Positions 1-18,653 of a stretch of DNA of 18,653 nucleotides are shown here, piece by piece. The DNA comes from Gammaproteobacteria bacterium (GTDB lineage: Bacteria > Pseudomonadota > Gammaproteobacteria > UBA9214): NCBI GenBank assembly GCA_030635865.1, contig DAOVYA010000004.1, forward strand, positions 1-18,653, written 5' to 3'. Position 1 is the stretch's first letter. The number at the start of each line of letters is the position of its first letter. Both the position numbers and the translations under genes were made by a program. The notes under the pieces were generated by a model. It was not told the DNA's origin, did no database searches, and saw nothing but the letters and a program-made list of their open reading frames with translations.

Positions 1-2
1 AG

Positions 3-29
3 GTAAAGGTCGAGGTGGGCCAGGTATGA
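3..29 (+). CDS. Possible 3' end of an upstream gene (rlmN by synteny)
   Basis: One frame is open from the window edge and ends VKVEVGQV-stop, with its TGA at 27-29 overlapping the pilF ATG at 26-28 (ATGA). In many Gammaproteobacteria the gene just upstream of pilF is rlmN, the 23S rRNA/tRNA adenine C2 methyltransferase, so this may be its last residues. Only eight codons are visible and they carry no diagnostic motif. A second frame ends earlier, at TAA 4-6, and could equally be the tail. The identity rests on gene order alone. Confidence 0.25.
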   Translation, partial: VKVEVGQV

Positions 30-1367: not shown

Positions 1368-1395
1368 TATTTTTACGGGTTAACGCGTGTAGATC

Positions 1396-2682: not shown

Positions 2683-2726
2683 CCCTGGATATTGAAAATA
2701 CGAAGACTGGTAACAGGAGTGATTGA
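2679..2726 (+). CDS. Possible 15-codon mini-ORF bridging hisS and yfgM
   Basis: An ATG at 2679 overlaps the hisS stop (ATGA, 2679-2682) and has GGAG 8 nt upstream (2667-2670). It reads [15 protein letters not shown] and stops at TGA 2724-2726, overlapping the yfgM ATG (TGATG). It joins both neighbours stop-to-start with a plausible ribosome site, as expected of a translational-coupling mini-ORF. The peptide itself has no recognisable feature. It may be coincidental, and I have only the geometry to support it. Confidence 0.25.
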
Positions 2727-4554: not shown

Positions 4555-4630
4555 TTTTTTCGTTGCAGGGATATCCTGCGGGTCTCAGTTTTTAATCACG
4601 TATTTCCGAACCTGAATCAAGTCAAGCCCC

Positions 4631-6028
4631 ATGTTGCCGGTTATCGCTCTGGTAGGTCGCCCGAATGTGGGCAAGTCGACGTTATTCAATCGAATGACCG
4701 GGACCCGGGATGCGCTGGTCGCAGATGTTCCGGGGCTGACGCGTGACCGGAAATACGGGGATGGCAGGATTGGAGAACGGCCATTCATCGTCATCGATAC
4801 CGGCGGGCTTTCGGGGGTTAAGGAAGACCTGGACAGCCTGATGGCCCGGCAATCCTGGCAGGCTGTTGAAGAGGCAGACCTGGTATTTTTCCTGGTTGAC
4901 GGGCGTGAGGGTCTGACTGCCGCTGATGAGGTGATTGCCGAGGCATTGCGGTGCACCGGCAAACCGCGTGTCCTGGTCGTGAACAAGACAGACGGGATAG
5001 ATGCCGAGGCGGCAGTGATGGAGTTTCATGCGCTCGGTATCGGGGAGCCCCGGGCCATTGCCGCGGCACACGGGCGTGGTGTGGCAGCGTTGATGGCTGC
5101 CGCACTGGAGCAATTGCCGGCGGTAGATGACAGCGCTGCCGCGGCGTTTGAAGATGAACGCATCCGTGTTGCCATCGTTGGCCGGCCCAATGTCGGCAAG
5201 TCCACACTGATTAACCGCATAATGGGCGAGGAGCGGGTGCTCGCTTTTGATCAGCCGGGCACAACCCGTGACAGCATCTTTATCCCCTTTGAACGGGATG
5301 GCCAGGCCTATACGCTGATCGATACTGCCGGGGTGAGACGCCGTGCCCGGGTCAAAGAAGCCATTGAAAAATTCAGTGTCATCAAGACACTGCAGGCCGT
5401 GGACGCTGCAAATGTTGTGATACTGGTGCTCGATGCCCAGCTGGAAATCAGTGAACAGGATGCCAGTCTTGCCGGCTATATAGCCGAAAAGGGGAGTGCG
5501 CTTATTGTGGCCGTCAACAAGTGGGACGGGCTGGATAGCTACGACCGCAGCCAGATAACCGGGCAACTGGAACGCAGGTTGCCGTTTCTCGGTTTTGCGA
5601 CCACTTGTTTCATTTCGGCATTGCACGGGACGGGAGTCGGTGACCTGTTCCCGCAGATCAACGCGGCCTATGCCTCGGCAATGCGGGAGTTGCCAACACA
5701 CGAGTTGACAAAAATCCTGGAACAGGCAGTGCAGGCACACCAGCCACCACTGGTACGCGGGCGGCGTATCAAGCTGCGTTATGCCCACCAGGGCGGCAGG
5801 AACCCCCCGGTGATTGTGATTCATGGCAACCAGACAAAGAATGTCCCCCCGACCTACCAGCGCTATCTTGTAAATGCGTTCCGTAAGGCCATGAAGCTCA
5901 GCGGCACACCGATACGCATCGAGTTCCGCACCGGCGAGAATCCCTACAAGGGGCGCAAAAACAAGCTGACAGGTCGTCAGATCAAGCGCAAGAGCCGGCT
6001 AATGCGGCATGTGAAGAAGAAGCACTGA
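4631..6028 (+). CDS. der: Ribosome-associated GTPase Der (EngA)
   Basis: This 465-residue protein has the tandem GTPase domains found only in Der. Domain 1 has GRPNVGKST (residues 9-17), DTGG (56-59) and NKTD (118-121). Domain 2 has GRPNVGKST (184-192), DTAG (231-234) and NKWD (296-299). A KH-like domain and a basic tail ([23 protein letters not shown]) follow. Der acts in 50S subunit assembly. The acidic linker between domains is short (about residues 165-178). The ATG lacks a strong ribosome site but gives the standard N-terminus. Block A ends here: in many relatives der continues a co-directional region, whereas here a palindromic repeat and a foreign-looking minus-strand gene follow. Confidence 0.97.
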
Positions 6029-6056
6029 TTTATTCCCGGGGAAGTACTGATTTATT
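6024..6056 (+). repeat. Direct repeat ACTGATTTATT at the der stop codon
   Basis: The 11-mer occurs at 6024-6034, where it includes the der TGA (6026-6028), and again at 6046-6056. Its CTGATTTAT part is the reverse complement of ATAAATCAG at 7641-7649, the outer right flank of palindrome copy 2. This suggests a shared outer edge of the mobile palindrome or an insertion trace. Confidence 0.55.
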
Positions 6057-6057
6057 G

Positions 6058-6178
6058 GTCATTGCGGGCGTACACTCCCGTCATTGCGAGCGAAGCGAAG
6101 CAATCTCCTGAATCTGGCAGCGGACTTCAGGTGCGCTCATGTAAGAGATTGCCGCGTCGCTTCGCTCCTCGCAATGAC
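6058..6178 (+). repeat. Palindromic repeat copy 1 (MITE/REP-like) with one 22-bp-spaced outer octamer
   Basis: The main palindrome is 6080-6178: a left arm of 28 nt (6080-6107), a 37-nt core containing CTGGCAGCGG (6114-6123), and a right arm of 34 nt (6145-6178). The arms pair from GTCATTGCGAG/CTCGCAATGAC inward. The right arm has two extra 3-nt bulges, and the left arm has two mismatches at 6098-6099. An additional GTCATTGC at 6058-6065 lies exactly 22 bp outside the left end. It sits between convergent der and the cyclase gene, where the transcript could fold as a bidirectional terminator. There is no coding capacity. Confidence 0.9.
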
Positions 6179-6206
6179 AAGGATATTTTGATTCATTAAT
6201 TCTGGT

Positions 6207-7457
6207 CTAAACAGCATTTGATGCTAAAGACGATGTATCGGGTATTTTCCCCTTGAGAAAGTACACTTTCATTTTCCCCTTACCTTTTACTTCGATGGCC
6301 TCTCGTTCTTCAAAAACATATTTGCCTTTTAAATATTTGTAGGTAACTTCGGTCAGTTGAATACGATCAGCTACCCCGTGCGATTCCATTCGACTTGCGG
6401 TATTGACGGCATCTCCCCAAAGATCATAAATAAACTTCTGAATGCCTATCACACCTGCCACCACAGTCCCCGTGTTGATGCCTATTCTTATACTAAGTTC
6501 TTCGCCAATTTCTGACCTCAAACGGACCATTTCTTCCTGCATACTCAAAGCCATGTCCGCAATAGCTTCAGCATGGTCCTCTCGAGGAATGGGTAATCCT
6601 CCCACGACCATATAGGCGTCACCGATTGTTTTAATCTTTTCCAGTCCATAGAGCAAGGCTAAACGATCAAAGGCTGAGAAAATGTTGTTCAACATAGCTA
6701 CTAATTCCTGAGGTGAAATTCGGGCAGAAAGTTTCGTAAAATTGACAATGTCTGCAAAGAGGATAGTAACTTCTGTAAATCCATCAGCAATGATTTCTTC
6801 TTTCTGCTTTAAGCGGTCCGCTATTGAAGACGGTAGAATGTTAAGAAGTAACTTTTCTGATTTATTATGCTCTCTTTGAAATGCATTGACGTAATACATC
6901 ATTGAGGCAAAAATTATCATGGAGGGGCCAATGAGATTCATACCAAAAAATGTCATGGATATCGTCTTTGATAAAGGAGGCGCCCACTGGGAAACGTACT
7001 CATCAAAATAAAGAGAGATGAAGAGAAGTATCAAGTAAGCGAGGAACCACCCAGTGGCTTTTTTGATATTTTGAAACATCAGGGAGCTAAATGGAGCTAA
7101 AAGGGACCACAGCATCAAAACTCCAGAAGCGGCAAATCCTCCCAGACTCCATTGCATCGCAATCGGGTTCCAGAAAATCATGAAGAAAAAAACGTAAAGA
7201 AGGAGAGAAAAACGTTTCGTTATGAGAAAAATAAAGAGAGCTGTTCCAACGATAACGGTAAAGCCAAAAGTAATGTAGGTCGTGATGGCAGGTCCCAATA
7301 GAACATAATACAGAGTGCCCCAAATGATACTTGCAAGGGTACATAGCCCTGTTATCACGACTAAAGTTACTTTCTCTCGTCGTATTTCAGAAGAATCACA
7401 ATCTAATGTGCAGAGTTTCTCTAGCTGTTTCCAAAAGTTGCTAAAGACAAGTCTCAT
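6207..7457 (-). CDS. Membrane class III adenylate cyclase (six TM helices plus catalytic domain)
   Basis: This 416-residue protein makes cAMP from ATP by family assignment. About six hydrophobic helices lie between residues 33 and 190, followed by a linker (EKLLLNILPSSIADRLKQKE, 201-220) typical of bacterial class III cyclases and a catalytic domain at about 226-402. Key residues are present: metal-binding Asp236 (LFADIVNF) and Asp280 (KTIGDAY), adenine-specifying Lys276 and Asp345 (YDLWGDAVNTASRME), and transition-state Asn352 and Arg356. The Lys/Asp pair argues for ATP rather than GTP. The gene is visibly A+T-rich: three hand-counted 60-base lines gave 19, 22 and 22 G+C, against 34 in a der line. 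It lies between two direct palindromes and breaks der/dolP surroundings, so transfer is likely. The ATG at 7457 has only a weak ribosome site. Confidence 0.93.
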   Translation of the reverse strand: MRLVFSNFWKQLEKLCTLDCDSSEIRREKVTLVVITGLCTLASIIWGTLYYVLLGPAITTYITFGFTVIVGTALFIFLITKRFSLLLYVFFFMIFWNPIAMQWSLGGFAASGVLMLWSLLAPFSSLMFQNIKKATGWFLAYLILLFISLYFDEYVSQWAPPLSKTISMTFFGMNLIGPSMIIFASMMYYVNAFQREHNKSEKLLLNILPSSIADRLKQKEEIIADGFTEVTILFADIVNFTKLSARISPQELVAMLNNIFSAFDRLALLYGLEKIKTIGDAYMVVGGLPIPREDHAEAIADMALSMQEEMVRLRSEIGEELSIRIGINTGTVVAGVIGIQKFIYDLWGDAVNTASRMESHGVADRIQLTEVTYKYLKGKYVFEEREAIEVKGKGKMKVYFLKGKIPDTSSLASNAV

Positions 7458-7523
7458 CTGTTTGCTCTAGAGTTGAGGTTATGCAGATTGGCGGTGAGAT
7501 AACATAGTTAGTGGACTAAGGAA

Positions 7524-7652
7524 CCTCTGATTAATAATCGAAACTCCGTCATTGCGAGCGAAGCGCGGCAATCTCCTGAATCTGGCAGCGGAGTCAATCT
7601 GAAAGAGATTGCCGCGTCACTGCGTTCCTCGCAATGACGGATAAATCAGAGG
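7524..7652 (+). repeat. Outer inverted repeat around palindrome copy 2
   Basis: CCTCTGATT (7524-7532) and AATCAGAGG (7644-7652) are exact reverse complements enclosing copy 2. With flanking near-matches (GGAACCTCTGATTAA against GGGGCCTCTGATTTA read in reverse) they extend the cruciform outward. They may be the true termini of a slightly larger element at this copy, or part of the dolP transcript terminator. Confidence 0.6.
7548..7638 (+). repeat. Palindromic repeat copy 2 (MITE/REP-like)
   Basis: It has a 28-nt left arm (7548-7575), a 29-nt core with CTGGCAGCGG, and a 34-nt right arm (7605-7638), in the same orientation as copy 1. Both arms are identical to those of copy 4 read in reverse. 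It begins 18 nt beyond the dolP stop (downstream in the dolP direction) and lies upstream of the cyclase gene, so it separates the acquired gene from the lpoA-dolP operon and may stop its transcription. Confidence 0.9.
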
Positions 7653-7655
7653 CCC

Positions 7656-8243
7656 CTAATCTAAATACTCAAACAATTTGACGACTTTCTGTACACCACT
7701 CACCTGGCTGGCTTTTCCTGCTGCTGCATCGGCTTCGGCATGGTAGAGCAGGCCCATGAGGTAGACGGTGCCATTTTCGGTAACGACCTTGACGCGTGAC
7801 GGGTCAAAGTCATCCTGCCCCTTTACGCCGAACAGGCTGCCCTTTACCTTGGTCGTGATGAGCGAATCGCTGCTGCGCGTCATCATGGAGTTGGGTGCCG
7901 CTATCGTCATTTCATTGTGCACCAGCCGTACTTTCTCGATTCCCTGGGTGATTGAGCCTGCCTGCTGCCGCAAGGCCTCGGTCGGCGCCTGTCCAACAAG
8001 CAGCACTACGCCATTGATACTGATGATATTGATGTGAATCTGGCTGCTCAGATCTTTCTCCTTGCCTATCGCGGAGCCTGCCTTTAATTCGATGCCCTCG
8101 TCATCGATGTACGTGCCAACCGTGCGCCGGTCATGGGCTATGTTTACGCCGCTGGCCGTGGCACCCCCGACAACGACGGGGGCACAGCCATTCAGCAGGG
8201 TGATCGTGACTAAAACAGTCAATAATGCCTTCAGCGCTTTCAT
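7656..8243 (-). CDS. dolP: Outer-membrane lipoprotein DolP (YraP), two BON domains
   Basis: This 195-residue protein (191 in E. coli) has a lipoprotein signal peptide with lipobox LNGC and Cys20. It keeps the family segment AHDRRTVGTYIDDE and has two BON domains at about residues 46-115 and 125-194. DolP localises to the outer membrane, binds anionic phospholipids at division sites and supports envelope integrity and BAM function. It is the last gene of the minus-strand lpoA-yraN-gmhA-dolP run, the same order as yraM-yraN-diaA-yraP in E. coli, 18 nt after gmhA. An AGGAG site lies about 12 nt upstream of the ATG at 8243, a rather long spacing. Palindrome copy 2 begins just beyond its stop. Confidence 0.92.
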   Translation of the reverse strand: MKALKALLTVLVTITLLNGCAPVVVGGATASGVNIAHDRRTVGTYIDDEGIELKAGSAIGKEKDLSSQIHINIISINGVVLLVGQAPTEALRQQAGSITQGIEKVRLVHNEMTIAAPNSMMTRSSDSLITTKVKGSLFGVKGQDDFDPSRVKVVTENGTVYLMGLLYHAEADAAAGKASQVSGVQKVVKLFEYLD

Positions 8244-8261
8244 TGGTTCGGGTTACTCCTG

Positions 8262-8855
<594 letters not shown>

Positions 8856-9209
8856 TTAGGCTCCAAAGGCATTCCTGATCCACTCGATGCTGTCCATTTT
8901 TCCGCCCATCGATACTACATCAAACCGGCAGGGTTGCTGTGCAATCTCCGGGAACGCCTGTAAGTAATGGTTGGCACAGGCGATCAGTTTTGACTGTTTG
9001 CGCCGGTCGACACTTTCTGCTGCGGATCCGAAATGTGTCTGGCGGCGGTATCGTACCTCAACAAAGACCAGGCTGTCTTTATCCTGCATGACCAGGTCGA
9101 TTTCCCCGCGCCGGGTATGGTAGTTGCGATGCACAATCTGCAGGCCTTGTGCCTGCAGGTAGCGGCAGGCATGCTCCTCGGCATCCTTGCCGGTTTTTAT
9201 CGCACTCAT
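8856..9209 (-). CDS. yraN: YraN family (UPF0102) nuclease-fold protein
   Basis: This 117-residue protein has the UPF0102 layout: GKDAEEHACRYLQAQGLQIV at the N-terminus, GEIDLV (residues 35-40) and FVEVRYR (49-55), then a helical C-terminus. It resembles the Holliday-junction resolvase/restriction endonuclease fold, where the Asp and Glu would bind metal; Arg53 takes the place of the usual catalytic Lys. The biological role of the family is unsettled. Its ATG is 2 nt after the lpoA stop and its stop is 3 nt before gmhA, so it is translated as part of this operon. The start is fixed by that spacing and by the standard N-terminus. Confidence 0.93.
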   Translation of the reverse strand: MSAIKTGKDAEEHACRYLQAQGLQIVHRNYHTRRGEIDLVMQDKDSLVFVEVRYRRQTHFGSAAESVDRRKQSKLIACANHYLQAFPEIAQQPCRFDVVSMGGKMDSIEWIRNAFGA

Positions 9210-9211
9210 GT

Positions 9212-11107
9212 TCAGGGCATGTCGATGTCTGTTGTGGCAACGGGCACCAGCAGCCGTGGCAGTCCCTTCCGGAATTTTGCACAGCGCAGGGTGCGGCTGA
9301 TCTGTCCCTGCCGGTCAACGGAAAGGTTGCCGCTGACGCCGTGGTAGGTACCGAATATGCCGCCGCCAAGCTGGGTCAGGTAGGGGAGTACCCGGTAGGC
9401 ATCGATGCCCAGGGCATAGAGCCGGTTGTAGCGGCTGGCATTTTCGGGCCAGTACTCGTTAATGGCCTGCTTCAGGTGTTCCCAGTTGCTGTTGTGCTCC
9501 AGTGTCCAGGGCATGTCACAAAATATAATGCCGTCCAGGTCAATGTCCCTGTCCTTGTCGGGATGACCTGTAAACACTTGTGATGTTGAATATACAGGGA
9601 CCGTGGATGCGCGATAGAAGCTCAGTTGCGGTCGAATCAGTCGTGCCTGCCTTGGTCCGGCAAGCAGAAACACAAAATCCACATCTTGCCGGCGGCGTGG
9701 TTCGAACTCCACTTTCCCCCCGAGTAACCGGGAAATTTGCTTGTGTCTTGCCTTGCTGCTGTCCAGGTTAAGTGATGCGCTTATGGCCTCGCCATGATCG
9801 GTCTTTGTTGTGTCATAGCGTTGCACCTCCAGGATTACGCCGCCGAGCGTTTGCCATTCCGCTCTAAATGCTTCATAGACGCGCTCACCCCGGTCATTGG
9901 CCGGGATCATGGCGATGCTGCGGTGATGGCCGTCCCGCCAGGCCATTCGGGCCACCTCACGTGCTTCGTCTTCGGGGGGTAGCCCGAACTGGTAGAGTGC
10001 ATCTCTGAACTGTGGCAGTCCCTGGACATGATTCAGCGCGAGAACCGGTACCGGAAGTTGTTCCTGCATGGCAACTGCCCGTACCGCATCTTTGCGCAGC
10101 GGGCCGATGGTAAATTGTGCGCCTTCGGACACGGCCTGCTGATAAGCGGCCAGGGCAGTTTCCGTGGTGCCCCCGGTATCGTACAGGCGCAGTTGCGGCA
10201 GCATGGCTGTGTCGGGAGAATCATAGTAGGCGGCGAAGACTCCGTCACGTATTGCATCGGCTGCACCAGCGAGGTTGCCTGTCAGTGGCAACAACAGCGC
10301 CAGGTGTGCGGGAGGCTGGCCTGCTACCCGCATGGTTCCCAGTAATTTATCGATAAAACTCCGGCTTGCGGGGTGACCGGGATAGCGTTTCTGCCAATAG
10401 GGCGTGACTTCTTTCAGGGCGTCCGGTTGTTGCAGGTACAGTCGCGCCAGTTCTACCAGTTCAATCCAGCCACTGGTCGGGTCGGGAGGGGGTGCGCTGC
10501 GAAGTGTCTGCAGCTCGGTGTCCGTCAGGTTGTTCAAGGCCTCCCATATCAGGAATTCGTTCTTCAGCTGTTTTTCGGGATCAGTCAACAGCGGGTCACG
10601 TAGAATTCTTTCACGTGCGCTTGAGAAAAACTGGTTATTCTGCAGGTAGGCCTCGGCTCGCAGCCGGTATATATCTCCGGCAAAAGGCCCACTCAAGGGG
10701 ACTGACTGCAGGATTGTCAGTGCTGCCTCGGGGTGTTGTTCCCGCACCGCGATCTCGGCCCGGTTGACATCATAATGCTGAAGGTTTAGCGGGTTGAGCC
10801 GGGCGATCGGGAGTGCCTCAAGGATTTCCGTGGCGCCTTGATAGTCAGTGCCGCGAATCAGACTGCCAGCAGCTTGCAACTCAAGGGCATGTTTTTCATT
10901 GGTGGTGGCGCGCGACGCAGCCTCAAGATAAAGCCGCGCAGCACCCTGGTAATCACCCCGGGCTTCAAGTAACTCTGCCTGTTGATACAGGGGGCTCTTG
11001 GCGGCGGGCTCGTAAGGGCCGCTGGTGGTGCAGGCCTGCAACAGGGTAACAAGCAGAAACAGGGTCAGGACAGTTCTGCTCGCAGTCAGGCGTGTAGGTA
11101 CAGGCAT
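9212..11107 (-). CDS. lpoA: Penicillin-binding protein activator LpoA
   Basis: This 631-residue lipoprotein has a signal peptide with lipobox LQAC and Cys26, an N-terminal helical TPR-like domain (about residues 35-255), and a C-terminal periplasmic-binding-protein type I fold starting near HLALLLPLTGNLAGAADAIRDG (about residue 268). LpoA reaches from the outer membrane through the peptidoglycan to activate the class A synthase PBP1A. E. coli LpoA has 678 residues and H. influenzae 575, so the length fits. It is the first gene of the lpoA-yraN-gmhA-dolP operon and diverges from rsmI across a gap of about 120 bp, as yraM and yraL do in E. coli. No clear Shine-Dalgarno precedes the ATG, but the signal peptide requires a start about here. 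Confidence 0.95.
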   Translation of the reverse strand: MPVPTRLTASRTVLTLFLLVTLLQACTTSGPYEPAAKSPLYQQAELLEARGDYQGAARLYLEAASRATTNEKHALELQAAGSLIRGTDYQGATEILEALPIARLNPLNLQHYDVNRAEIAVREQHPEAALTILQSVPLSGPFAGDIYRLRAEAYLQNNQFFSSARERILRDPLLTDPEKQLKNEFLIWEALNNLTDTELQTLRSAPPPDPTSGWIELVELARLYLQQPDALKEVTPYWQKRYPGHPASRSFIDKLLGTMRVAGQPPAHLALLLPLTGNLAGAADAIRDGVFAAYYDSPDTAMLPQLRLYDTGGTTETALAAYQQAVSEGAQFTIGPLRKDAVRAVAMQEQLPVPVLALNHVQGLPQFRDALYQFGLPPEDEAREVARMAWRDGHHRSIAMIPANDRGERVYEAFRAEWQTLGGVILEVQRYDTTKTDHGEAISASLNLDSSKARHKQISRLLGGKVEFEPRRRQDVDFVFLLAGPRQARLIRPQLSFYRASTVPVYSTSQVFTGHPDKDRDIDLDGIIFCDMPWTLEHNSNWEHLKQAINEYWPENASRYNRLYALGIDAYRVLPYLTQLGGGIFGTYHGVSGNLSVDRQGQISRTLRCAKFRKGLPRLLVPVATTDIDMP

Positions 11108-11141
11108 CGGGTGGCAGGACAGTGTCGGGTAGTCAATAAGT

Positions 11142-11159
11142 AGTCAGAAGCCACTGACT
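11142..11159. promoter_or_regulatory. Inverted repeat in the divergent lpoA-rsmI gap
   Basis: AGTCAG (11142-11147) and CTGACT (11154-11159) are exact reverse complements separated by 6 nt, with a further AGTCA at 11131-11135. Its position in the shared control region allows an operator, but six-bp arms are weak evidence. I could not place convincing -35/-10 boxes for either gene here. Confidence 0.3.
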
Positions 11160-11229
11160 CTACTGAAAAGCCGTTACCGCGTCCACCATCTAACCCTGTG
11201 GGTGAAGAATTTTGCTAGGATTCGTGCCC

Positions 11230-12084
11230 ATGGATATGAGCCGCAAGAAGTCCGGAGTGCTGTATGTCGTGGCAACACCGATCGGGAACCTGGATGATAT
11301 CTCTCTGCGGGCGCTGGAGGTACTGAAGGCCGTCTCGCTGATCGCTGCAGAAGACACCCGGCACAGCCGGAAACTGCTGGCGCACTACGGGATTGCTGGA
11401 CGCATGTTTGCCTTGCATGAACATAATGAGCAGAAAGTGACCGATAAGCTGCTGAAAACGCTGCTGGGTGGCGATGATGTCGCACTGGTCTCTGACGCCG
11501 GTACACCATTGGTCAGTGATCCAGGGTTTTACCTGGTACGCGCTGCACGCCAGGCCGGTATCCGGGTTGCTCCACTGCCGGGGCCGAGCGCGTGTATTGC
11601 CGCACTGTCAGTTGCCGGCTTGCCAACAGACCGCTTCGTGTTCGAGGGGTTTCTGCCGGTACGTGCGGCGGCACGCAGCCAGCGCTTGCGTGAACTGGCA
11701 ACCGAGATGCGCACACTGGTGTTTTATGAGTCCAGCCACCGCATCTGTGAGTGTTTGACAGACATGGCTGAATGCATGGGCAGTGACCGGCAGGCAACGG
11801 TTGCAAGGGAGCTGACCAAGACCTTTGAAACCATCAGGGACGGCACTCTTGCCGAGCTTGTTGACTGGGTGCAGGCAGATAGTAACCAGCAAAAAGGGGA
11901 ATTTGTCGTGGTTCTGCAGGGGGCGCCTGCCCGCGATTCAGATATCGACGAGGCCACTGAACAGGCGTTAACCGTGCTTATTGCCGAGTTGCCGCTCAAG
12001 CAGGCGGCATCACTGGCAGCGAAAATCACCGGCCTGCCGAAAAACCGCTTATACGAAGCAGGGCTGGTTATTAAAGGAAAATAA
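11230..12084 (+). CDS. rsmI: 16S rRNA (cytidine(1402)-2'-O)-methyltransferase RsmI
   Basis: The ATG at 11230 (AGGA at 11217-11220, 9 nt upstream) gives 284 residues; E. coli RsmI has 286. An in-frame TTG at 11212 and a second ATG at 11236 are less likely starts. The tetrapyrrole-methylase fold is marked by VVATPIGNLDDISLRALEVL, AAEDTRHSRKLL, LVSDAGTPLVSDPG and PLPGPSACIAALSVAGLPTD, followed by the C-terminal KNRLY segment. The enzyme uses SAM to methylate the 2'-OH of C1402 in the ribosomal P site, together with RsmH. It diverges from lpoA, the conserved arrangement. Its TAA is 5 nt before palindrome copy 3, which separates it from convergent queG. Confidence 0.96.
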   Translation: MDMSRKKSGVLYVVATPIGNLDDISLRALEVLKAVSLIAAEDTRHSRKLLAHYGIAGRMFALHEHNEQKVTDKLLKTLLGGDDVALVSDAGTPLVSDPGFYLVRAARQAGIRVAPLPGPSACIAALSVAGLPTDRFVFEGFLPVRAAARSQRLRELATEMRTLVFYESSHRICECLTDMAECMGSDRQATVARELTKTFETIRDGTLAELVDWVQADSNQQKGEFVVVLQGAPARDSDIDEATEQALTVLIAELPLKQAASLAAKITGLPKNRLYEAGLVIKGK

Positions 12085-12089
12085 CACCC

Positions 12090-12218
12090 GTCATTGCGAG
12101 CGTAGCGCGGCAATCTCGCTAATCTGGCAGCGGACTTGACGAGATTGCCGCGTCGCTACGCTCCTCGCAATGACGGGATGGGTGAGTCGCAATGATGAAG
12201 GAATGTAGTCGCAACGAC
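12090..12218 (+). repeat. Palindromic repeat copy 3 with two 22-bp-spaced outer octamers
   Basis: The main palindrome is 12090-12174: a 28-nt left arm (12090-12117), a 23-nt core with CTGGCAGCGG, and a 34-nt right arm (12141-12174). All 28 left-arm bases pair, leaving the two 3-nt bulges on the right (12151-12153 and 12161-12163). Decaying copies of the right-end octamer follow at exact 22-bp steps: GCAATGAC 12167, GCAATGAT 12189, GCAACGAC 12211. It fills the gap between convergent rsmI and queG and could terminate both. Confidence 0.9.
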
Positions 12219-12227
12219 AGAGGCGGC

Positions 12228-13310
12228 TTATTCCCGAATATGCTGTCTTAACGCCCATTCAACATGTTCACGCACCAGTTCGGAGGCATGGTCTCTTCGA
12301 GTTTTCAACGCAGTGACCACCTGCTCCGTGGTTGGTGCGTTACCCAGACCCACGGCAATGTTCCGCAACCAGCATTCATGGCCGATGCGGTAGATAGCAC
12401 TGCCCTGTGTATAACGTTCAAAGTCTTCCTGCTCCCATTGGAACAGCCGTACCAGGCTGTTGGCGTCAAGCGCATGGCGGGGGTGGAAATCGGTTTCGCA
12501 GGTGGGGCTTGAGAAGCGGTTCCAGGGGCAAACCAGTTGGCAATCATCACAACCATAGACCCGGTTTCCAATCAGCGGGCGCAACTCCTCGGGTATTGAG
12601 CCACGCAACTCGATGGTGAGGTAGGAAATGCACAGGCGCGCATCGAGCTTGTAGGGCGCAACAATGGCCCGGGTCGGACAGACATCGATGCAGGCGTGAC
12701 AGGTGCCGCAGTGGTTCACGGCGCCTGTGTCGGTTGGTAATGGCAGGTTGGTGTACAGTTCGCCAATGAAAAACCAGGAACCTGCGTGTTCATTGATGAG
12801 GTTGGTGTGTTTCCCGATCCAGCCGAGTCCTGCATTTTGCGCCAGCGCCTTTTCAAGTACCGGTGCACTGTCTGAAAAAACACGGTAACCGAACGGGCCG
12901 GTCTGTGCTTCAATCCTGTCAGCCAGTTTTTGCAGTCGTTTGCGGAGTACCTTGTGATAGTCACGGCCCAGGGCATAACGGGACAGGTAGGCCAGTGCAG
13001 GGTCCTGCAGGACAGTGTCGGCTGGCTGAGCATCCGCTGGCCAGTAATCCATGCGCACGGAAATTATCCGGATCGTACCGGGCACCAGCTCGCCCGGACG
13101 GCTGCGGCGGGTGCCATGGCGCTCCATGTAATGCATCTCGCCATGGTTACCCGCCTTTAACCATTGCAATAAATGCGCTTCGTCTTCTGCAAGTTCCGTG
13201 TCAGAAATGCCAAGTTGCTGGAATCCGAGCTCCATTCCCCAGCGTTTAATAGATTGCGCCAGCGCCTGGTAATCCAGCCTGGAGTCGGGTTGTCCGGGTT
13301 GCTCGCTCAT
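12228..13310 (-). CDS. queG: Epoxyqueuosine reductase QueG
   Basis: This 360-residue enzyme performs the last step of queuosine synthesis, reducing epoxyqueuosine to queuosine in tRNA with a cobalamin and two [4Fe-4S] clusters (379 residues in E. coli). It has the N-terminal DUF1730 domain, the segment FSDSAPVLEKALAQNAGLGWIGKHTN with probable proton-donor Asp147, and ferredoxin-like cysteine motifs CGTCHACIDVCP (Cys201, 204, 207, 211) and GCDDCQLVCPWN (Cys254, 257, 261). A HEAT-like helical C-terminus follows. It diverges from nnr, as in E. coli and Pseudomonas. No Shine-Dalgarno precedes the ATG at 13310, and a -10-like box lies only about 10 nt upstream, so its mRNA may be almost leaderless. 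Confidence 0.96.
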   Translation of the reverse strand: MSEQPGQPDSRLDYQALAQSIKRWGMELGFQQLGISDTELAEDEAHLLQWLKAGNHGEMHYMERHGTRRSRPGELVPGTIRIISVRMDYWPADAQPADTVLQDPALAYLSRYALGRDYHKVLRKRLQKLADRIEAQTGPFGYRVFSDSAPVLEKALAQNAGLGWIGKHTNLINEHAGSWFFIGELYTNLPLPTDTGAVNHCGTCHACIDVCPTRAIVAPYKLDARLCISYLTIELRGSIPEELRPLIGNRVYGCDDCQLVCPWNRFSSPTCETDFHPRHALDANSLVRLFQWEQEDFERYTQGSAIYRIGHECWLRNIAVGLGNAPTTEQVVTALKTRRDHASELVREHVEWALRQHIRE

Positions 13311-13320
13311 GCAGTACTGG

Positions 13321-13349
13321 ATTTTAGCGTGTGCTTCACGGTATGTTGA
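13321..13349 (-). promoter_or_regulatory. Candidate sigma-70 promoter for queG
   Basis: On the minus strand TCAACA (13349-13344) and TAAAAT (13326-13321) are separated by 17 nt, matching 4/6 and 5/6 consensus positions. Transcription would start only a few nt before the ATG at 13310. Confidence 0.35.
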
Positions 13350-13362
13350 GCCTGGATATTAA
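13335..13362 (+). promoter_or_regulatory. Candidate sigma-70 promoter for nnr-tsaE
   Basis: TTCACG (13335-13340) and TATTAA (13357-13362) are 16 nt apart and each match four of six consensus bases. They lie 26 nt before the nnr ATG and overlap the proposed queG promoter, so the two could interfere. Confidence 0.3.
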
Positions 13363-13388
13363 CAGAATACACGTATTTTAAAGGGCTG

Positions 13389-14897
13389 ATGAACATCAAT
13401 TACTCTGAGCCGCAGGCAGTTCCCCTGTACACGGCTGAACAGGTTCGCGAGCTGGACCGGCTGGCCATTCAGGAGGCCGGTATCCCGGGCTACACCCTGA
13501 TGACGCGCGCGGGTGAGGCCTGTTGGGTATGCCTGTGCGCACGTTGGCCGACGGCGCGCTGCATCGTTGTGCTTTGCGGTACCGGAAATAATGGCGGTGA
13601 TGGTTTTGTAGTGGCCCGGCTTGCGCTGGCTGCCGGTTTACAGGTGCGCGTGCTGCAAATCGGTGCTGCAGACAGGATCAGGGGAGATGCACTGACGGCG
13701 CGTACGGACTATGTCGAGGCCAATGGAGCGATAGCACCATTCTCGGCGGACGCCCTGGCGGGTGCCGATGTCATTATCGATGCGATGCTGGGTACCGGTC
13801 TGCAACATTTGCTGGAAGGCGCCTGGCATGATGCGGTTGTGGCGATCAATACCTCGGGAGTCCCGGTACTGGCCATCGATATTCCCAGTGGCTTGCATGC
13901 CGATAGCGGGTCGGTCATGGGTGTTGCCGTCCGTGCAGTGGAAACCGTCACCCTTATAGGGCGCAAACGCGGTCTTTATACGGGGCAGGGAAAGGTCCAT
14001 GCCGGTACGGTCAGCTTTGCAGAGCTCGGTGTGCCAGCCTCTGTTTACAAGCAGTGTGCTGCAGGCTGCGAGCTCGTCGATCAGCCACCGCTTGGGCGGC
14101 TTGCCGCTCCACGGCCACGTAACGCACACAAGGGGGATTTTGGCCATGTACTGGTGCTGGGCGGCGACCGGGGCATGGCGGGTGCTGTGCGACTGGCCGG
14201 TGAGGCGGCATTGCGTACCGGTGCCGGGCTGGTCAGTCTGGCAACGCGCGCAGAGCATGCGGCTGTCCTTGCAGCTGCCTGCCCGGAACTGATGGCCCAC
14301 GCGGTTACCGGTCCGCTGGAATTAAAGGACTTGATGCAGAAGGCCACGGTTGTCATTGCAGGTCCGGGGCTGGGGCAATCGGCATGGGCACAGTCCCTGC
14401 TGCCCGTGGTGCTGGAATCACGGCTCCCGCAGGTGCTGGATGCCGATGCGTTGAACCTGCTGGCGAAGGATCCTTTGCGCTGTGATAACTGTGTACTGAC
14501 GCCGCACCCGGGTGAGGCGGGGCGTTTGCTGCGACAGTCGACCGCGGAGATACAGGCCGATCGTTTTGCTGCAGTAACGGCTATTAATCAGCAATACGGT
14601 GGGATTGTCGTGTTAAAAGGTGCCGGTACGATTATCAACACCGCTAACCGTGTGCTATCGGTTTGCAAGAACGGTAATCCCGGCATGGCAACCGCGGGGA
14701 TGGGGGACGTATTAAGCGGCGTGATTGCCGGACTGATAGCGCAGGGTATGCCGATAGCCGAGGCAGTCGTGGCGGGGGTATGCGTACATGCCAGTGCCGG
14801 AGACCGCGCGGCATCGCATGGTGAGCGTGGCATGACGGCAGGCGATGTTATTAAGGAAATACGCGGCCTCGTGAATCCTGCAGGGGTGCTTGTGTGA
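13389..14897 (+). CDS. nnr: Bifunctional NAD(P)H-hydrate epimerase / ADP-dependent NAD(P)H-hydrate dehydratase
   Basis: This 502-residue fusion (515 in E. coli YjeF) repairs hydrated NADH and NADPH. The N-terminal epimerase (about 1-215) interconverts R- and S-hydrates and shows GNNGGDG (residues 66-72), DAMLGTGL and DIPSGLHADSG. The C-terminal dehydratase (about 225-500) removes water from the S form using ADP and shows NAHKGDFGHVLVLGGDRGMAGA, GPGLG, DADALNLL, TPHPGEAGRLL and GMGDVLSG with catalytic Asp440. The AAGGG ribosome site is only 3 nt from the ATG, which may reduce translation. It is first in an nnr-tsaE-amiB-mutL run and overlaps tsaE by 4 nt (GTGA). Confidence 0.96.
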   Translation: MNINYSEPQAVPLYTAEQVRELDRLAIQEAGIPGYTLMTRAGEACWVCLCARWPTARCIVVLCGTGNNGGDGFVVARLALAAGLQVRVLQIGAADRIRGDALTARTDYVEANGAIAPFSADALAGADVIIDAMLGTGLQHLLEGAWHDAVVAINTSGVPVLAIDIPSGLHADSGSVMGVAVRAVETVTLIGRKRGLYTGQGKVHAGTVSFAELGVPASVYKQCAAGCELVDQPPLGRLAAPRPRNAHKGDFGHVLVLGGDRGMAGAVRLAGEAALRTGAGLVSLATRAEHAAVLAAACPELMAHAVTGPLELKDLMQKATVVIAGPGLGQSAWAQSLLPVVLESRLPQVLDADALNLLAKDPLRCDNCVLTPHPGEAGRLLRQSTAEIQADRFAAVTAINQQYGGIVVLKGAGTIINTANRVLSVCKNGNPGMATAGMGDVLSGVIAGLIAQGMPIAEAVVAGVCVHASAGDRAASHGERGMTAGDVIKEIRGLVNPAGVLV

Positions 14898-15346
14898 TAA
14901 TGGATATCCCGGATGCCACTGCGATGGAGGCCCTGGGTGCGCAGCTTGCGCAAGCGTGTACAGCGGGCATTATCTACCTAAAGGGTGAACTGGGTGCCGG
15001 TAAAACAACCCTGGCTCGTGGTTTCCTGCGTGCGCTGGGGCACGAAGGCAGGGTCAGGAGCCCGACTTACACCCTGGTAGAGCCATACCCGTTTGATTCC
15101 GGGACGGTCTATCATCTCGACCTGTACCGGCTCTCCGATGCCCGGGAGCTTGAAGACCTGGGTCTGCGTGACCTGCTTGCAGAGCAGGCGCTGCTACTGG
15201 TGGAGTGGCCGGAGCGGGGCAGCGGGGTCCTCCCGGCTGCCGATTTGCTGGTCACCATTGAGCACCGGGACGAAGGTCGCCGGGTAACGCTGGAGGCGGC
15301 AACCGCGACGGGTCAGCATCTTGTAAGCCAGATACAATCCACATAA
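14894..15346 (+). CDS. tsaE: tRNA t6A37 biosynthesis ATPase TsaE
   Basis: This 150-residue protein (153 in E. coli) is the small P-loop ATPase that works with TsaB and TsaD to form N6-threonylcarbamoyladenosine at tRNA position 37. It shows the Walker A GELGAGKTT (residues 31-39), VRSPTYTLVEPY, HLDLYRL and LVEWPERG. The GTG at 14894 is preferred: it overlaps the nnr stop (GTGA) and has AGGGG 7 nt upstream (14882-14886), whereas the ATG at 14900 is 13 nt from that site. The next gene is 317 bp away, so it probably ends the nnr-tsaE transcription unit. Confidence 0.95.
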   Translation: MIMDIPDATAMEALGAQLAQACTAGIIYLKGELGAGKTTLARGFLRALGHEGRVRSPTYTLVEPYPFDSGTVYHLDLYRLSDARELEDLGLRDLLAEQALLLVEWPERGSGVLPAADLLVTIEHRDEGRRVTLEAATATGQHLVSQIQST

Positions 15347-15424
15347 TCCCATGTTGTTAATTCAGCTATCTGGTTCTTTTCTATCCAAAAAGAAAAACTC
15401 GCACCAATGGGTCGAATCCGTTCG

Positions 15425-15485
15425 TTGTAGGACCGGCGCCCCGCCGGGAACGGTAAGAATTCCCCGCGAGGCGCGGGTCCTGCGA
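15425..15485. repeat. REP-like GC-rich hairpin
   Basis: Two 24-nt arms, 15425-15448 (starting TTGTAGGACC) and 15462-15485 (ending GGTCCTGCGA), match at 19 of 24 positions as reverse complements, with some mismatches being G-T wobbles. The loop is 13 nt. The form recalls the TGTAGGAGC...GCTCCTACA class of extragenic palindromes in Gammaproteobacteria. It may end tsaE transcription. It is unrelated in sequence to the GTCATTGC palindromes. Confidence 0.65.
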
Positions 15486-15593
15486 TGAGAAGTGAGCATT
15501 GGCGCCTCTGCGAGAGAAAATACAGTATTTATAGCGGAAACTAGATTGTTGTGCAGGTATGAGTCCTATCTCAACGAGTTTAAAGGATATTTG

Positions 15594-15623
15594 TTGCAAT
15601 CTGTCACAGATTGTGGGTATATT
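15594..15623 (+). promoter_or_regulatory. Candidate amiB promoter with operator-like palindrome in the spacer
   Basis: TTGCAA (15594-15599) and TATATT (15618-15623) are 18 nt apart, each close to sigma-70 consensus. AATCTG-TCA-CAGATT (15598-15612) is a perfect 6-bp-arm palindrome lying between the boxes, where a bound repressor would block RNA polymerase. Activity and regulator are unknown. Confidence 0.4.
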
Positions 15624-15650
15624 CTGCCCAATCCTTGGGGGGAACCGGGT

Positions 15651-15656
15651 GAGGGG
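15651..15656 (+). promoter_or_regulatory. Ribosome binding site deciding the amiB start
   Basis: GAGGGG lies 7 nt before the ATG at 15664, which opens a canonical signal peptide. This selects 15664 over the in-frame ATG at 15559. Confidence 0.65.
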
Positions 15657-15663
15657 CATTCGA

Positions 15664-16971
15664 ATGAGAAATCTGCTTACAGGGTTGTGTCTCTGGCTGG
15701 CCGGGCCAGTTCTCGCTGTTGCAGCCCCGGTCGATTTCAAGGACGTGCGTTTCTGGACGGCCCCGGATCATACCCGCGTGGTATTCGATATAAACGGCCC
15801 GGTACAGCATAATTTGTTTATCGTGAAAAACCCGGAACGTGTTGTTATCGACATTCCCGGGGCACGTGCAAAATCCTCTCTTAATACCAAAGCCGTCAAT
15901 GCCGGTTTAATCGATGGTGTACGTGCCGCGATGTACAAGCCGGATGTATTGCGGATCGTGCTGGATCTGAAACAGGGCGTTCGTCCAAAAAGTTTCACCC
16001 TTAAGCCAAACGGGCAGTATGGACATCGCCTGGTAGTCGATCTGTATAACAAAACAGAAAAAGCCGGCAAGGCGGTCGTTAAAAAGACGGTAGCAGACAT
16101 GAATATTCAATCGCGTGACCTGGTCATAGCGATAGATGCCGGTCATGGTGGTGAAGATCCGGGTGCAATCGGTCGTCATGGAACCCGTGAAAAGGATGTC
16201 GTGTATTCAATTGCGCGCCGGCTTGAAGCGCTGATAAAAAAAGAACCCGGAATGCAAGCGGTCCTGATAAGGAAGGGCGATTACTATATCGGCTTGCGCC
16301 AGCGCATCAACAAGGCACGCAAACTCAATGCCGATCTGTTTATCTCGATTCATGCTGACGGTTTTCGTGACCGGCGTGTCCGGGGTTCTTCTGTGTTTGT
16401 TTTGTCGAACCGGGGTGCAACCTCTGAAATGGCCCGTTGGCTGGCGGAGAAGGAGAATTCATCAGATCTTGCCGGTGGTGTGAGCCTGGATGACAAGGAT
16501 GGCCTGCTTGCCGAGGTTCTGCTTGACCTGTCACAGACGGCGACCATCGAGGCCAGCCTGGAGGTGGCGGACAATCTGCTGGGTGAGCTCAAGGGCATTG
16601 GCAAGACACACAAGTCCAGTGTTCAGCAGGCAGGATTCGTGGTACTGAAATCACCGGATATCCCGTCGATCCTGGTTGAAACCGCTTTTATCTCCAACCC
16701 GCAGGAAGAAAAGAAGCTGCGCAGCAAACAGCACCAGCAGATGCTTGCCCGTGCCATGTTGCGCGGTATACAGGACTATTTTTCCAAACACCCACCACCT
16801 GGAACCCGTATGATTGCCCGCCAATATGTTGTCAAGCGCGGTGATACACTGAGCCATATTGCGGTGCAACACCAGGTCGGTCTGAACCGTTTGCGTGGTT
16901 ATAACGATCTGAGAAACGACCGTCTTCGCATCGGTGACACCCTGCGCATTCCGCCCTCCCGGGGTAGTTAG
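15664..16971 (+). CDS. amiB: N-acetylmuramoyl-L-alanine amidase AmiB/AmiC family with LysM
   Basis: The chosen start gives 435 residues (AmiB of E. coli has 445). A Sec signal peptide (MRNLLTGLCLWLAGPVLAVA, cleavage near residue 20) is followed by an AMIN domain (about 23-120), which targets the septal envelope. The zinc amidase_3 domain (about 155-375) has ligands His161 (DAGHGGEDPGA), Glu176 and His230 (SIHADGF) and catalytic Glu339 (LVETAFISN). A helical insert at about 255-310 probably acts as the autoinhibitory arm relieved by EnvC/NlpD-type activators. A LysM domain (about 387-431, YVVKRGDTLSHIAVQH) binds peptidoglycan. The enzyme splits septal wall during daughter-cell separation. LysM and the tsaE-amiB-mutL order favour amiB over amiC. 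Confidence 0.93.
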   Translation: MRNLLTGLCLWLAGPVLAVAAPVDFKDVRFWTAPDHTRVVFDINGPVQHNLFIVKNPERVVIDIPGARAKSSLNTKAVNAGLIDGVRAAMYKPDVLRIVLDLKQGVRPKSFTLKPNGQYGHRLVVDLYNKTEKAGKAVVKKTVADMNIQSRDLVIAIDAGHGGEDPGAIGRHGTREKDVVYSIARRLEALIKKEPGMQAVLIRKGDYYIGLRQRINKARKLNADLFISIHADGFRDRRVRGSSVFVLSNRGATSEMARWLAEKENSSDLAGGVSLDDKDGLLAEVLLDLSQTATIEASLEVADNLLGELKGIGKTHKSSVQQAGFVVLKSPDIPSILVETAFISNPQEEKKLRSKQHQQMLARAMLRGIQDYFSKHPPPGTRMIARQYVVKRGDTLSHIAVQHQVGLNRLRGYNDLRNDRLRIGDTLRIPPSRGS

Positions 16972-16980
16972 CCACACCTT

Positions 16981-17108
16981 GTCATTGCGAGGAACGCAGT
17001 GACGCGGCAATCTCTTCAAGCCCGCTGCCAGAGTCATGAGATTGCCGCGCTTCGCTCGCAATGACGGGAGGTTGAGCTTGCAATGACGAGGTAAGGGGGC
17101 GCAATGAC
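16981..17108 (-). repeat. Palindromic repeat copy 4 (inverted) with two outer octamers
   Basis: The main palindrome is 16981-17065, in reverse orientation: a 34-nt arm (16981-17014), a 23-nt core with CCGCTGCCAG (17022-17031), and a 28-nt arm (17038-17065). Both arms equal those of copy 2 read in reverse. Extra GCAATGAC octamers follow at 17080 and 17101, stepping 22 and 21 bp from the one at 17058. It separates amiB from mutL. Confidence 0.9.
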
Positions 17109-17217
17109 GGGATTATTTCAGTAAGCAAGAGCTCCCCTGGTTCATTTCTCCCACTATTCTGTGGCAGGCGATAGCAGTATCATGGGCGGCCTGTCCACTG
17201 CACATTGTTCACATCCG

Positions 17218-18653
17218 ATGCCCATCCAGGTTCTCCCCACTCACCTGATAAACCAGATTGCTGCCGGTGAAGTCATCGAGCGACCGGCTTCTGTTGTGAA
17301 AGAGTTGCTGGAGAACAGCATCGACGCCGGGGCACGTGCCGTCGAGGTGGATATTGAGCAGGGCGGCAAACAGCGTATCCGCGTGCGTGATGACGGCATC
17401 GGTATACAGCACAACGAATTGTCACTGGCCCTGTCACCCCATGCCACCAGCAAGATCACGTCACTGGAAGACCTGGAGTCGGTAGACAGTCTCGGGTTTC
17501 GGGGCGAGGCCTTGCCGAGCATTGCATCGGTATCGCGACTGCAACTCAGTTCACGCATACCCGGTGCTGATTCCGGCTGGTCCGTGTGCGGCGATGGTTC
17601 TGAAACATCAGGTGCAGCATCGCCCGTTGCCCACACACCCGGCACAACGGTAGATGTGAAAGACCTGTTTTTCAATACACCGGCAAGACGCAAGTTTCTG
17701 CGTACCGAGGCAACCGAGTTCAAGCATATTGAAAATGTGGTGCGGCGTATTGCACTGAGCTGTTTTCCCGTGGCAATGAAGTTGCAGCACAACCAGCGGA
17801 CAGTGTTTCATCTGCCCGAAGCCACTACCAGAGACCAGCAGCAACGCCGGGTCGCCGACCTGTGTGGCAAGGCCTTCATGGAGCAGGCGATCCATATCGA
17901 GCATGCGGCTGCCGGCCTGTCCCTGCATGGCTGGGTGGGCTTGCCGACCTTTTCCCGCAGCCAGGCCGATTTGCAGTTTTTCTACGTTAATCACCGCATG
18001 GTGCGCGACAAGCTGGTCACGCATGCCATCCGCCAGGCCTACCAGGATGTGCTGTTTCACGGGCGTCACCCGGCCTATGTGTTGTTCCTGGAAATTGATC
18101 CGGCCAGCGTGGATGTGAATGCGCATCCAACCAAGCATGAAGTGCGATTTCGTGACAGCCGCCTGGTTCATGACTATCTGTTTCGGACCCTGCACGATGC
18201 GCTGGCAGATGTCCGGCCAGCGGCCGATCAGCCGACACCGTTGCCGGCACAGCCGTTGCAGCAACTGAATGTACAAACAGGTCAGGGCAGTGCACCGTCA
18301 CAGGCAAACATGCGCCTGGGTGTGCAGGAACTGATGGCCCGCTATGCAGCCTTGCACCCGACGGACAACACGGTGGCTTCGGAGAAGGAAGCCACGGACA
18401 CGGGTGACGGTTTTCCACTCGGCTTTGCGCTGGCCCAGTTACACGGAGTTTATATCCTGGCACAGAATGCAGACGGCCTGGTGCTGGTGGATATGCACGC
18501 GGCACATGAGCGCATCACCTACGAAGGCCTGAAAACGGCACAGTCGGGCGAGGGGGTCCGTATCCAGCCGTTGCTGGTTCCCGTCAGTCTGAATGTCAGT
18601 CAGCGGGAAGCCGATGTATGCGAGGAAAAACAGGACTGGTTTGCGGAACTGGG
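17218..18653 (+). CDS. mutL: DNA mismatch repair protein MutL (3' truncated by the window)
   Basis: The reading frame stays open to the window edge, giving 478 residues of an expected 600 or so. The GHKL ATPase domain has Glu29 ([12 protein letters not shown]), Asp58 (DDGIG) and LGFRGEAL (about 92-99), then the transducer domain with [11 protein letters not shown] and [12 protein letters not shown] linker follows at about 330-395, then the dimerisation domain begins. It carries [12 protein letters not shown] (residues 425-436), fitting DxHAxxExxxxE, the metal site of nicking MutL proteins. MutL links MutS recognition to strand removal. The ATG at 17218 gives the standard MPIQVLP start; an in-frame ATG at 17182 would add 12 residues. 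Neither has a strong ribosome site. Confidence 0.95.

Follow-up and report, generated by a model that had tools for sequence, protein, structure and literature searches.

Paired hairpin repeats of the CGTC type, many of them probably carried by IS5-type mini-transposons, in a gammaproteobacterial genome

Introduction

The closest described relatives of the repeats analysed here are the CGTC-tagged repetitive extragenic palindromes (REPs) of Di Nocera, De Gregorio and Rocco (2013; PMC3733652). The part of that paper drawn on here describes hairpins with an outer C/TGTC tag, a stem of 8–9 bp that starts A,T, a loop of 4–5 nt and a 3-nt tail, mostly CCA; they form predominantly head-to-head heterodimers, are mostly intergenic, have no linked transposase and sometimes lie inside an outer palindrome. 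By the authors' own account, bulged types may have escaped their survey. We have analysed a family of paired hairpins with four copies in an 18,653-nt stretch of a draft gammaproteobacterial genome (the window; assembly GCA_030635865.1, contig DAOVYA010000004.1, positions 1 to 18,653 of the forward strand). The family shares the tag, stem start, tail length, pairing, intergenic placement, lack of a linked transposase and occasional outer palindrome of the CGTC-tagged REPs, but its stem is interrupted (a 5-bp outer stem plus a distinct inner one, which is hypervariable in two of the other genomes analysed), the tip of its common arms is a 3-nt GNA loop and its tail is CTC. Because the published stem and loop lengths do not fit it, in a comparison made by description, we assign it to none of the four CGTC-tagged REP families. 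The plan is that of a known type, and the interrupted stem, which lies outside the published lengths, appears to be new.

Other described systems resemble the family in part. Miniature inverted-repeat transposable elements (MITEs) of the IS5 family likewise have terminal inverted repeats like those of a full IS5-type element, a 4-bp YTAR duplication at some copies and no gene; they differ in that the interior here is a REP-type hairpin pair, which is also widespread without these ends. REPINs, whose GTAG REPs are associated with REP-associated tyrosine transposases (RAYTs), are also inverted hairpin pairs in high copy, but the present family has no GTAG tag and no RAYT link, and occurs in genomes without a Y1 transposase gene. 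Compared by description with the portions of the sources used here, the Rickettsia repeats RPE-4, RPE-6 and RPE-7 (PMC3767692) have an ATGAC end in common with the family, and RPE-7 could be a member under another name; the Chunjie MITE of Geobacter uraniireducens (PMC10969869) is also short, with many partial copies lacking ends, and differs in its length of 178–235 bp. Among the papers listed by literature searches, no title or abstract opening indicates the hairpin repeat or, after 2013, any mobiliser for CGTC repeats.

We favour, on balance, the reading that these are hairpin pairs of the CGTC type, many of which have in this genome been copied as the interior of IS5-type MITEs and have nested into older copies.

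Hairpin pairs within IS5-type inverted repeats

The source genome (G000; 1,893,998 bases in 325 contigs, 82.8% complete) contains 271 exact GTCATTGCGAG ends (132 in forward and 139 in reverse orientation), whereas the reversed pattern occurs 0 times and once, respectively, showing that this is a high-copy family and not confined to the four copies from which it was first described. Allowing at most one mismatch per end, 97 paired elements are present in 593.5 kb fetched from the genome, on contigs that are not a random sample because they were selected for holding copies. Two pairs of whole elements are identical and eight differ by a single base, bearing out the recent copying that the preliminary description had proposed. 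A count over 463 kb gave 59 of 79 pairs with both arms in the 28/34-nt form, with lengths of 85 nt (36), 91 nt (14) and 84 nt (12) dominant. Neighbouring arms are arranged head-to-head in 70 cases and head-to-tail in 4, and another CGTC end lies within 60 bp of 45 of the 97 dimers.

Many copies, including the second in the window, are enclosed by a further inverted repeat, GGAACCTCTGATTAATTA...AATAAATCAGAGGTTCC. This outer end has 51 matches with up to 3 mismatches and none in the control. Repeats of the GGAACCTCTGATT type are found within 150 bp of 34 of the 97 dimers, on both sides of 12 and on one side of 22; the threshold of 3 mismatches in 13 has a roughly estimated chance rate of about 4%. 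Across the 593.5 kb, 25 inverted pairs of outer repeats, 110–251 bp apart, enclose a CGTC dimer, which belongs to the present hairpin family in 21 cases and to other CGTC types in 4. Exact 4-bp direct duplications border 7 of the 25 pairs, compared with 46 of 600 mismatched combinations (7.7%). The duplicated sequences are TTAG (twice), CTAA (twice), TTAA, CTAG and TTGT, that is, six of the form YTAR, given as the target duplication of IS5 in the part of PMC10359306 used here, and one TTGT.

In sequence, the MITE ends correspond to those of complete IS5 elements present in relatives. Two such elements encoding a DDE_Tnp_1 transposase (L307, 1186 bp; L309, 1189 bp) have the same ends, with target duplications that are unreadable because the left ends fall at contig edges; the L309 transposase belongs to the IS5 family (360.5 bits against a cut-off of 140) and has DDE_Tnp_1 and DUF772 domains. 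A third full element with these ends (L332, 1200 bp, flanks CTAA/TTAA) is in genome G063, which also contains a dimer with degenerate ends of this IS5 type (L161). A fourth, of 1188 bp on a viral contig (L393), has exact CTAG/CTAG flanks and a protein 88% identical to that of L309; its ends read TTTATTC and TTAATTC, where the MITE has TTTATTC on the long-arm side and TTAATTA on the short-arm side. Because the outer repeats match full IS5 ends and 4-bp duplications are in excess, IS5-type MITEs probably carry many of the copies as cargo, and for about one copy in three in this genome a DDE (IS5) route is indicated.

The same IS5-type ends also surround other CGTC dimers (GTCATCCCGGCGAATGCCGGGATCC ... 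GCCGGAATGAC and relatives) at L062:2899-3031 (= L261), L289 (= L259), L298 (= L262) and L290; the MITE has therefore held more than one hairpin type.

The four copies in the window and their sites in relatives

All four copies were recovered as the preliminary description gave them, with 28- and 34-nt arms around cores of 23–37 nt that retain CTGGCAGCGG, and all are intergenic. Copy 1 (6080–6178, plus strand, 99 nt), between der and an adenylate cyclase gene, has a 28-nt arm at 6080–6107, a 37-nt core and a 34-nt arm at 6145–6178. To its left on the plus strand (6040–6066) lie a degenerate outer IS5-type end (6040–6052, 3 of 13 mismatches) and then an orphan GTCATTGCG end (6058–6066). Copy 2 (7548–7638, plus strand, 91 nt), between the cyclase gene and that of a BON protein, has its 28-nt arm at 7548–7575, a 29-nt core and its 34-nt arm at 7605–7638. 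It is held by a 137-bp IS5-type MITE on the plus strand (7520–7656), whose left inverted repeat GGAACCTCTGATTAAT (7520–7535) and right inverted repeat ATAAATCAGAGGCCCC (7641–7656) are an addition to the features listed earlier; the 4-bp flanks, CTAA and TAAT, are not an exact duplication. Copy 3 (12090–12174, plus strand, 85 nt) begins 8 bases past the rsmI stop codon, between rsmI and queG, with arms of 28 nt (12090–12117) and 34 nt (12141–12174) around a 23-nt core; to its right, on the minus strand (12188–12218), are two degenerate orphan ends, CGCAATGAT (12188–12196) and CGCAACGAC (12210–12218). Copy 4 (16981–17065, minus strand, 85 nt) is inverted, between an amidase gene and mutL, with the 34-nt arm at 16981–17014, a 23-nt core and the 28-nt arm at 17038–17065, and is followed on its right, on the minus strand (17079–17108), by orphan ends TGCAATGAC (17079–17087) and CGCAATGAC (17100–17108). 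Copies 2 and 4, inverted relative to one another, have identical arms, as had been noted.

The copies overlap only mechanical open reading frames (ORFs) of the listing, in line with their description as non-coding. As single strands, each folds into one long hairpin, with DNA energies of -27.2 to -32.8 kcal/mol (z -5.2 to -7.0; 0 of 200 dinucleotide shuffles equally good), and the RNA folds are also strong (z -4.4 to -8.3). No Rfam family reaches its gathering score for the copies.

For copies 3 and 4, filled and empty sites were compared on both strands. All ten relatives readable at the copy 4 site (L234-L241, L243 and L244, a count that leaves out L242, L245 and L246) lack the element between the amidase gene and mutL, and matches elsewhere in those loci are inside the genes. 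At the site of copy 3, none of nine readable relatives (L376-L379, L382, L383, L385, L388 and L392, each with the rsmI end and 1.49 kb beyond) has an arm end in the first 1.3 kb after rsmI; one of them, L392, has an arm end at 1.37 kb. Absence at the corresponding sites, together with the target duplications, indicates insertion. Across 39 relatives, the 34-nt arm pattern is present in 15 and absent from 24. In one relative (L239, genome G005) the gap between the amidase gene and mutL holds a different inverted repeat, ACACGGAAGGACACGGAAG ... CTTCCGTGTCCTTCCGTGT, where G000 has copy 4.

Architecture of the hairpin arms

Each copy is two inverted hairpins with the tags outside, that is, a head-to-head pair on the CGTC-tagged REP plan. 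An arm consists of a (C)GTC tag, the stem strand ATTGC, an interior, the stem strand GCAAT and a CTC tail, and the outer stem ATTGC/GCAAT is common to both arms. In this genome the base before GTC is C in 165 and T in 27 of 194 arms, and the 3-nt tail is CTC in 177 of the 194. Elsewhere that base is C in 27 of 28 arms from Bacteroidia, and C in 10 and T in 23 of 55 from Ruminococcus RUG14402 (G059).

The short arm has the tip GC-GNA-GC, and the long arm adds one module, GAG on the 5' side of the loop and CGA on the 3' side. The two 3-nt insertions of the preliminary description are thus present, although they constitute a single module symmetric about the arm's own hairpin loop, and it is this extra module that produces the 'bulges'. 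In 28-nt arms, which the cross-phylum scan described below did not select for, the tip G-C-G-N-A-G-C has N as A in 14, C in 11, T in 8 and G in 6, with the flanking G in 37 and the A in 38 of 39. GNA loops are generally regarded as comparable in stability to d(GCGAAGC). This oligonucleotide is called an extraordinarily stable DNA mini-hairpin in the part of PMC10527192 used here. Tips other than GNA occur in the arms of other genomes.

Positions 14 and 20 of the 34-nt arm, left free in the scan pattern, are paired as G-C in 99, A-T in 32 and C-G in 1 of the cross-phylum arms, with A-C in 4 and G-T in 2; in this genome they are A-T in 79 and G-C in 5. The interior of the long arm may be drawn as tandem G.A pairs, a modelled rather than computed arrangement because the long arm alone folds weakly under standard DNA parameters (z 0.25). 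Stronger evidence for arm structure comes from inner stems that are hypervariable yet paired: stems of at least 5 bp occur in 14 of 39 distinct interiors from Ruminococcus RUG14402, against 3.1% of shuffles, and in 18 of 27 from Bacteroidia KatS3mg027, against 3.7%, the outer GTCATTGC/GCAATC having been fixed by the search. The cross-phylum scan set gives 24 of 115, against 2.1%.

At 11 fetched places (L008, L019, L032, L038, L039, L041, L049, L052, L054, L061 and L067) a longer insert that forms a hairpin of its own, AGGATGGC ATA GCCATCCT and variants, takes the place of the short-arm end, after which the unit again closes with GCAATGAC. A separate recurrent motif near TTTGCGATCTTTGCGTCTTTGCGAGAG is found in the same genome at L011:9037, L012:4465, L034:1647, L040:5102, L042:5057 and L060:1520 and 1724.

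Distribution across bacteria

Scanning a collection of species genomes for CGTCATTGCGAGNNNCNNAGNGACNNNGCAATCTC gave at least 114 stretches. Among the matches listed, records carrying the 34-nt arm span about 20 phylum-level names, verifying the statement in the preliminary description that such palindromes recur in unrelated genomes. The groups listed include Chloroflexi, Armatimonadetes, Patescibacteria, Melainabacteria, Firmicutes families, Atribacteria, Desulfobacterales, Fibrobacteria, Bacteroidetes families, Planctomycetes, Nitrospirae, KSB1, Spirochaetaceae, Omnitrophota and Sulfurimonas; they are taken from record titles, and most of the records are metagenome bins, in which misbinning is possible. 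Isolates with the arm belong to Rickettsia, Sphingopyxis, Chryseobacterium, Thioalkalivibrio, Thiohalobacter, Thiomicrospira and Porticoccus. In 20 named genomes the pattern GTCATTGCN{10,24}GCAATC occurs 8 to 202 times per genome, with a control of 0 in 20 of 20, and three complete Rickettsia genomes have 70, 85 and 121 arms. This breadth of a single 34-nt hairpin was unexpected.

Pairing extends beyond the source genome. Of 120 cross-phylum arms scanned, 55 have a strict partner within 120 nt with the tags outside and 7 with the tags inside; the partner is the 28-nt form in 29 of the 55, and the commonest spacer is 24–25 nt. No protein recurs in the neighbourhood: among 567 ORFs clustered from 80 of the at least 114 cross-phylum loci, four clusters reach three or more loci, with nearest members 0, 335, 425 and 2458 bp from the arm and others at 0.4–5 kb, none of them consistently close, and a linked mobiliser gene was rejected as an explanation at these loci.

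Viral contigs contain 15 stretches with the arm, and copy 2 has no match to plasmids and phages at E 1e-5. In two Rickettsia species (L126 and L208) a similar dimer stands in the same flanking sequence, and this insertion therefore probably predates the split of the two species. Two literature matches to the letters of GTCATTGCGAG and GAGCGAAGCGA are a primer and a probe; the rRNA-spacer probe OA-3833 of a Legionella species contains an arm-like stretch, GCGAGGGAGCGAAGCGACC, in the portion of PMC4254607 used here.

Alternative explanations

The most probable alternative is that the hairpin pair moves on its own, entering palindromes already present (MITEs, terminator-like hairpins and older dimers) at their dyad centre and duplicating no target bases, by means of a single-strand- or structure-specific enzyme that is neither Y1 nor linked to the pair, carriage by MITEs being secondary. 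We consider this possible but unlikely. An inverted repeat scoring at least 10 flanks 15 of the 76 cross-phylum dimers for which 60 nt could be read on each side, compared with 12 of 912 sets of mismatched flanks; at a score of at least 15 the figures are 8 of 76 and 1 of 912. Two of the 15 (L121 and L169) are due to neighbouring copies of the family, two (L167 and L130) have an IS5-like end and two (L106 and L200) come from one organism. The outer repeats vary from one organism to another and often have the dimer close to the middle (gaps 7/7, 11/10, 14/13 and 22/23). Dimers nest within dimers, direct duplications are not in excess at 71 dimers (see Discussion), and the part of PMC3733652 used here describes REP dimers enclosed by palindromes in H. 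neapolitanus, A. variabilis and T. roseum. Against self-insertion, there is no candidate enzyme and, as described above, no recurrent neighbour protein; some of the outer repeats may be other MITEs; and orientation and linkers are alike in many MITE copies of G000, which looks like the copying of one composite. A flank-palindrome test within G000 (18 of 72 against 69 of 576 in the control) is uninformative because the copies share IS5 ends. In bacterium MAG_12, L106 and L200 have in common an outer inverted repeat of about 25 bp, GGCTCTTCGCTATTTTGTGTGGGTA, with gaps of 22 and 23 nt, which on its sequence looks like a MITE of another IS family.

A further alternative, which we regard as improbable, is that the repeats are retained for a role in RNA, as bidirectional terminators or mRNA stabilisers, with recombination as their main means of spread. 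The dimers are mostly intergenic: the gaps holding 71 of them are convergent in 18 cases, unidirectional in 29 and divergent in 8, with 13 at contig edges and 3 inside ORF calls, compared with 69 convergent, 275 unidirectional and 71 divergent among all gaps by a crude ORF caller, and with the same caller the nearest 3' end is less than 60 bp away in 38 of 47. This placement and the strong RNA folds fit an RNA role, but avoidance of promoters accounts for the placement equally well, terminator-like matches are at background (10 found against 10.8 expected, one overlapping copy 3), and the absence at relatives' sites and the target duplications show insertion.

The preliminary description had suggested mobilisation by a single-strand transposase of the RAYT (Y1 HUH) type, as for REP and REPIN elements. 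Paired, tagged hairpins in high copy, mostly intergenic and lacking target duplications at the dimer, are what such a system would leave, and G000 does encode one RAYT-like Y1 gene (L029:651-1487, contig 281), which scores 73.2 bits for NF047646 REP_Tyr_transpos, below the cut-off of 80. That gene is flanked not by the arm but by inverted repeats of the GGGGACAG and GGGGACAGACC types, which match the TIRYT signature GGGGWSAS given in the part of PMC3733652 used here, and no arm end is present in its 2.6-kb locus. In a sample of 50 Y1 loci (one or a few per genome from the source genome, 39 relatives and 20 named genomes), 48 have no arm end within one mismatch. The 30 loci of G000 and its relatives include one with a one-mismatch arm end, and the 20 of the named genomes include one (L227) in which an exact arm end lies about 740 bp away from the Y1 match; this locus is from Rickettsia MEAM1, whose genome has 89 Y1 matches and 70 arms. 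A Y1 gene is absent from 6 of the 20 named genomes despite their arms: two complete Rickettsia (85 and 121 arms), three Sphingopyxis (134, 118 and 117) and a Chryseobacterium (12). The same part of PMC3733652 records no Y1 gene flanked by CGTC repeats, and the tag here is mostly C/TGTC, not GTAG. With other repeats at the genome's own Y1 gene and 85–134 arms in five genomes that encode no Y1, we rejected a RAYT or other Y1 mobiliser; this explanation is largely refuted already, and we give it almost no weight.

Discussion

We return to carriage by IS5-type MITEs as the favoured reading. Under it, the hairpin pair would occupy the position of the transposase gene between the 17–18-bp ends of an IS5 element, and an IS5 transposase supplied in trans would insert the unit of about 130 bp at YTAR with a 4-bp duplication. 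Later copies would have landed in or next to older ones, giving rise to nests and orphan ends. We infer that the mover is the IS5 transposase, that it acted in trans from a copy that this draft lacks, and that each MITE lineage captured the dimer a single time. The observed basis is the anatomy of the copies, the constraint on the arms, the outer repeats with their excess of duplications, the matching full IS5 elements, the absence of copies in relatives, and high copy numbers without Y1.

Several observations weigh against this reading. No outer repeat lies within 150 bp of 63 of the 97 dimers, and 22 of the other 34 have one on a single side. An exact 4-bp duplication is lacking at 18 of the 25 repeat pairs, that of copy 2 among them, and the 71 dimers themselves have no excess of 2–9-bp direct duplications, a result that led us to reject the dimer as a DDE element in its own right. 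A DDE_Tnp_1 gene was found neither in G000 itself (an 83%-complete draft) nor in copy-bearing relatives, for example G007 and G008. Draft bins often lack repeated elements, but the absence is still a weak point of the argument. The head-to-head predominance of CGTC-tagged REPs, seen in G000 and in the cross-phylum arms, is reversed in the Ruminococcus and Bacteroidia stretches (6 tandem against 3 head-to-head and 10 against 5, respectively), and inner stems are not in excess in the arms of this genome (6 of 65, against 11.5% of shuffles). Finally, the flanking palindromes inspected in other groups mostly differ from this IS5 end, and IS5 therefore cannot account for the family as a whole.

In those other groups, the choice lies between uptake of the dimer by transposons of several families and insertion of the dimer at the centres of palindromes; MITE carriage and palindrome-centre insertion may both hold, at different stages. 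A speculative and, we think, rather unlikely extension is that the family is a hyperparasite of palindromes. It would settle at dyad centres (transposon ends, terminator-like hairpins and its own older copies) duplication-free and independently of Y1, and would then be multiplied by any DDE transposase able to recognise the host palindrome, IS5 here and others elsewhere. Its arm, with the DNA-type tip GC-GNA-GC or new inner stems, would accordingly be recognised as folded single-stranded DNA.

What stands from the first interpretation is a dispersed, mobile, non-coding family of bulged palindromes, recently copied and widespread; its proposed single-strand transposase does not. Carriage by IS5-type MITEs, which we favour, would have implications for the spread of an already recognised class of orphan repeats in bacteria. 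Seeing a CGTC-type family as cargo of IS5-type mini-transposons links two repeat classes that are usually treated apart, and makes the spread of such orphan repeats testable.

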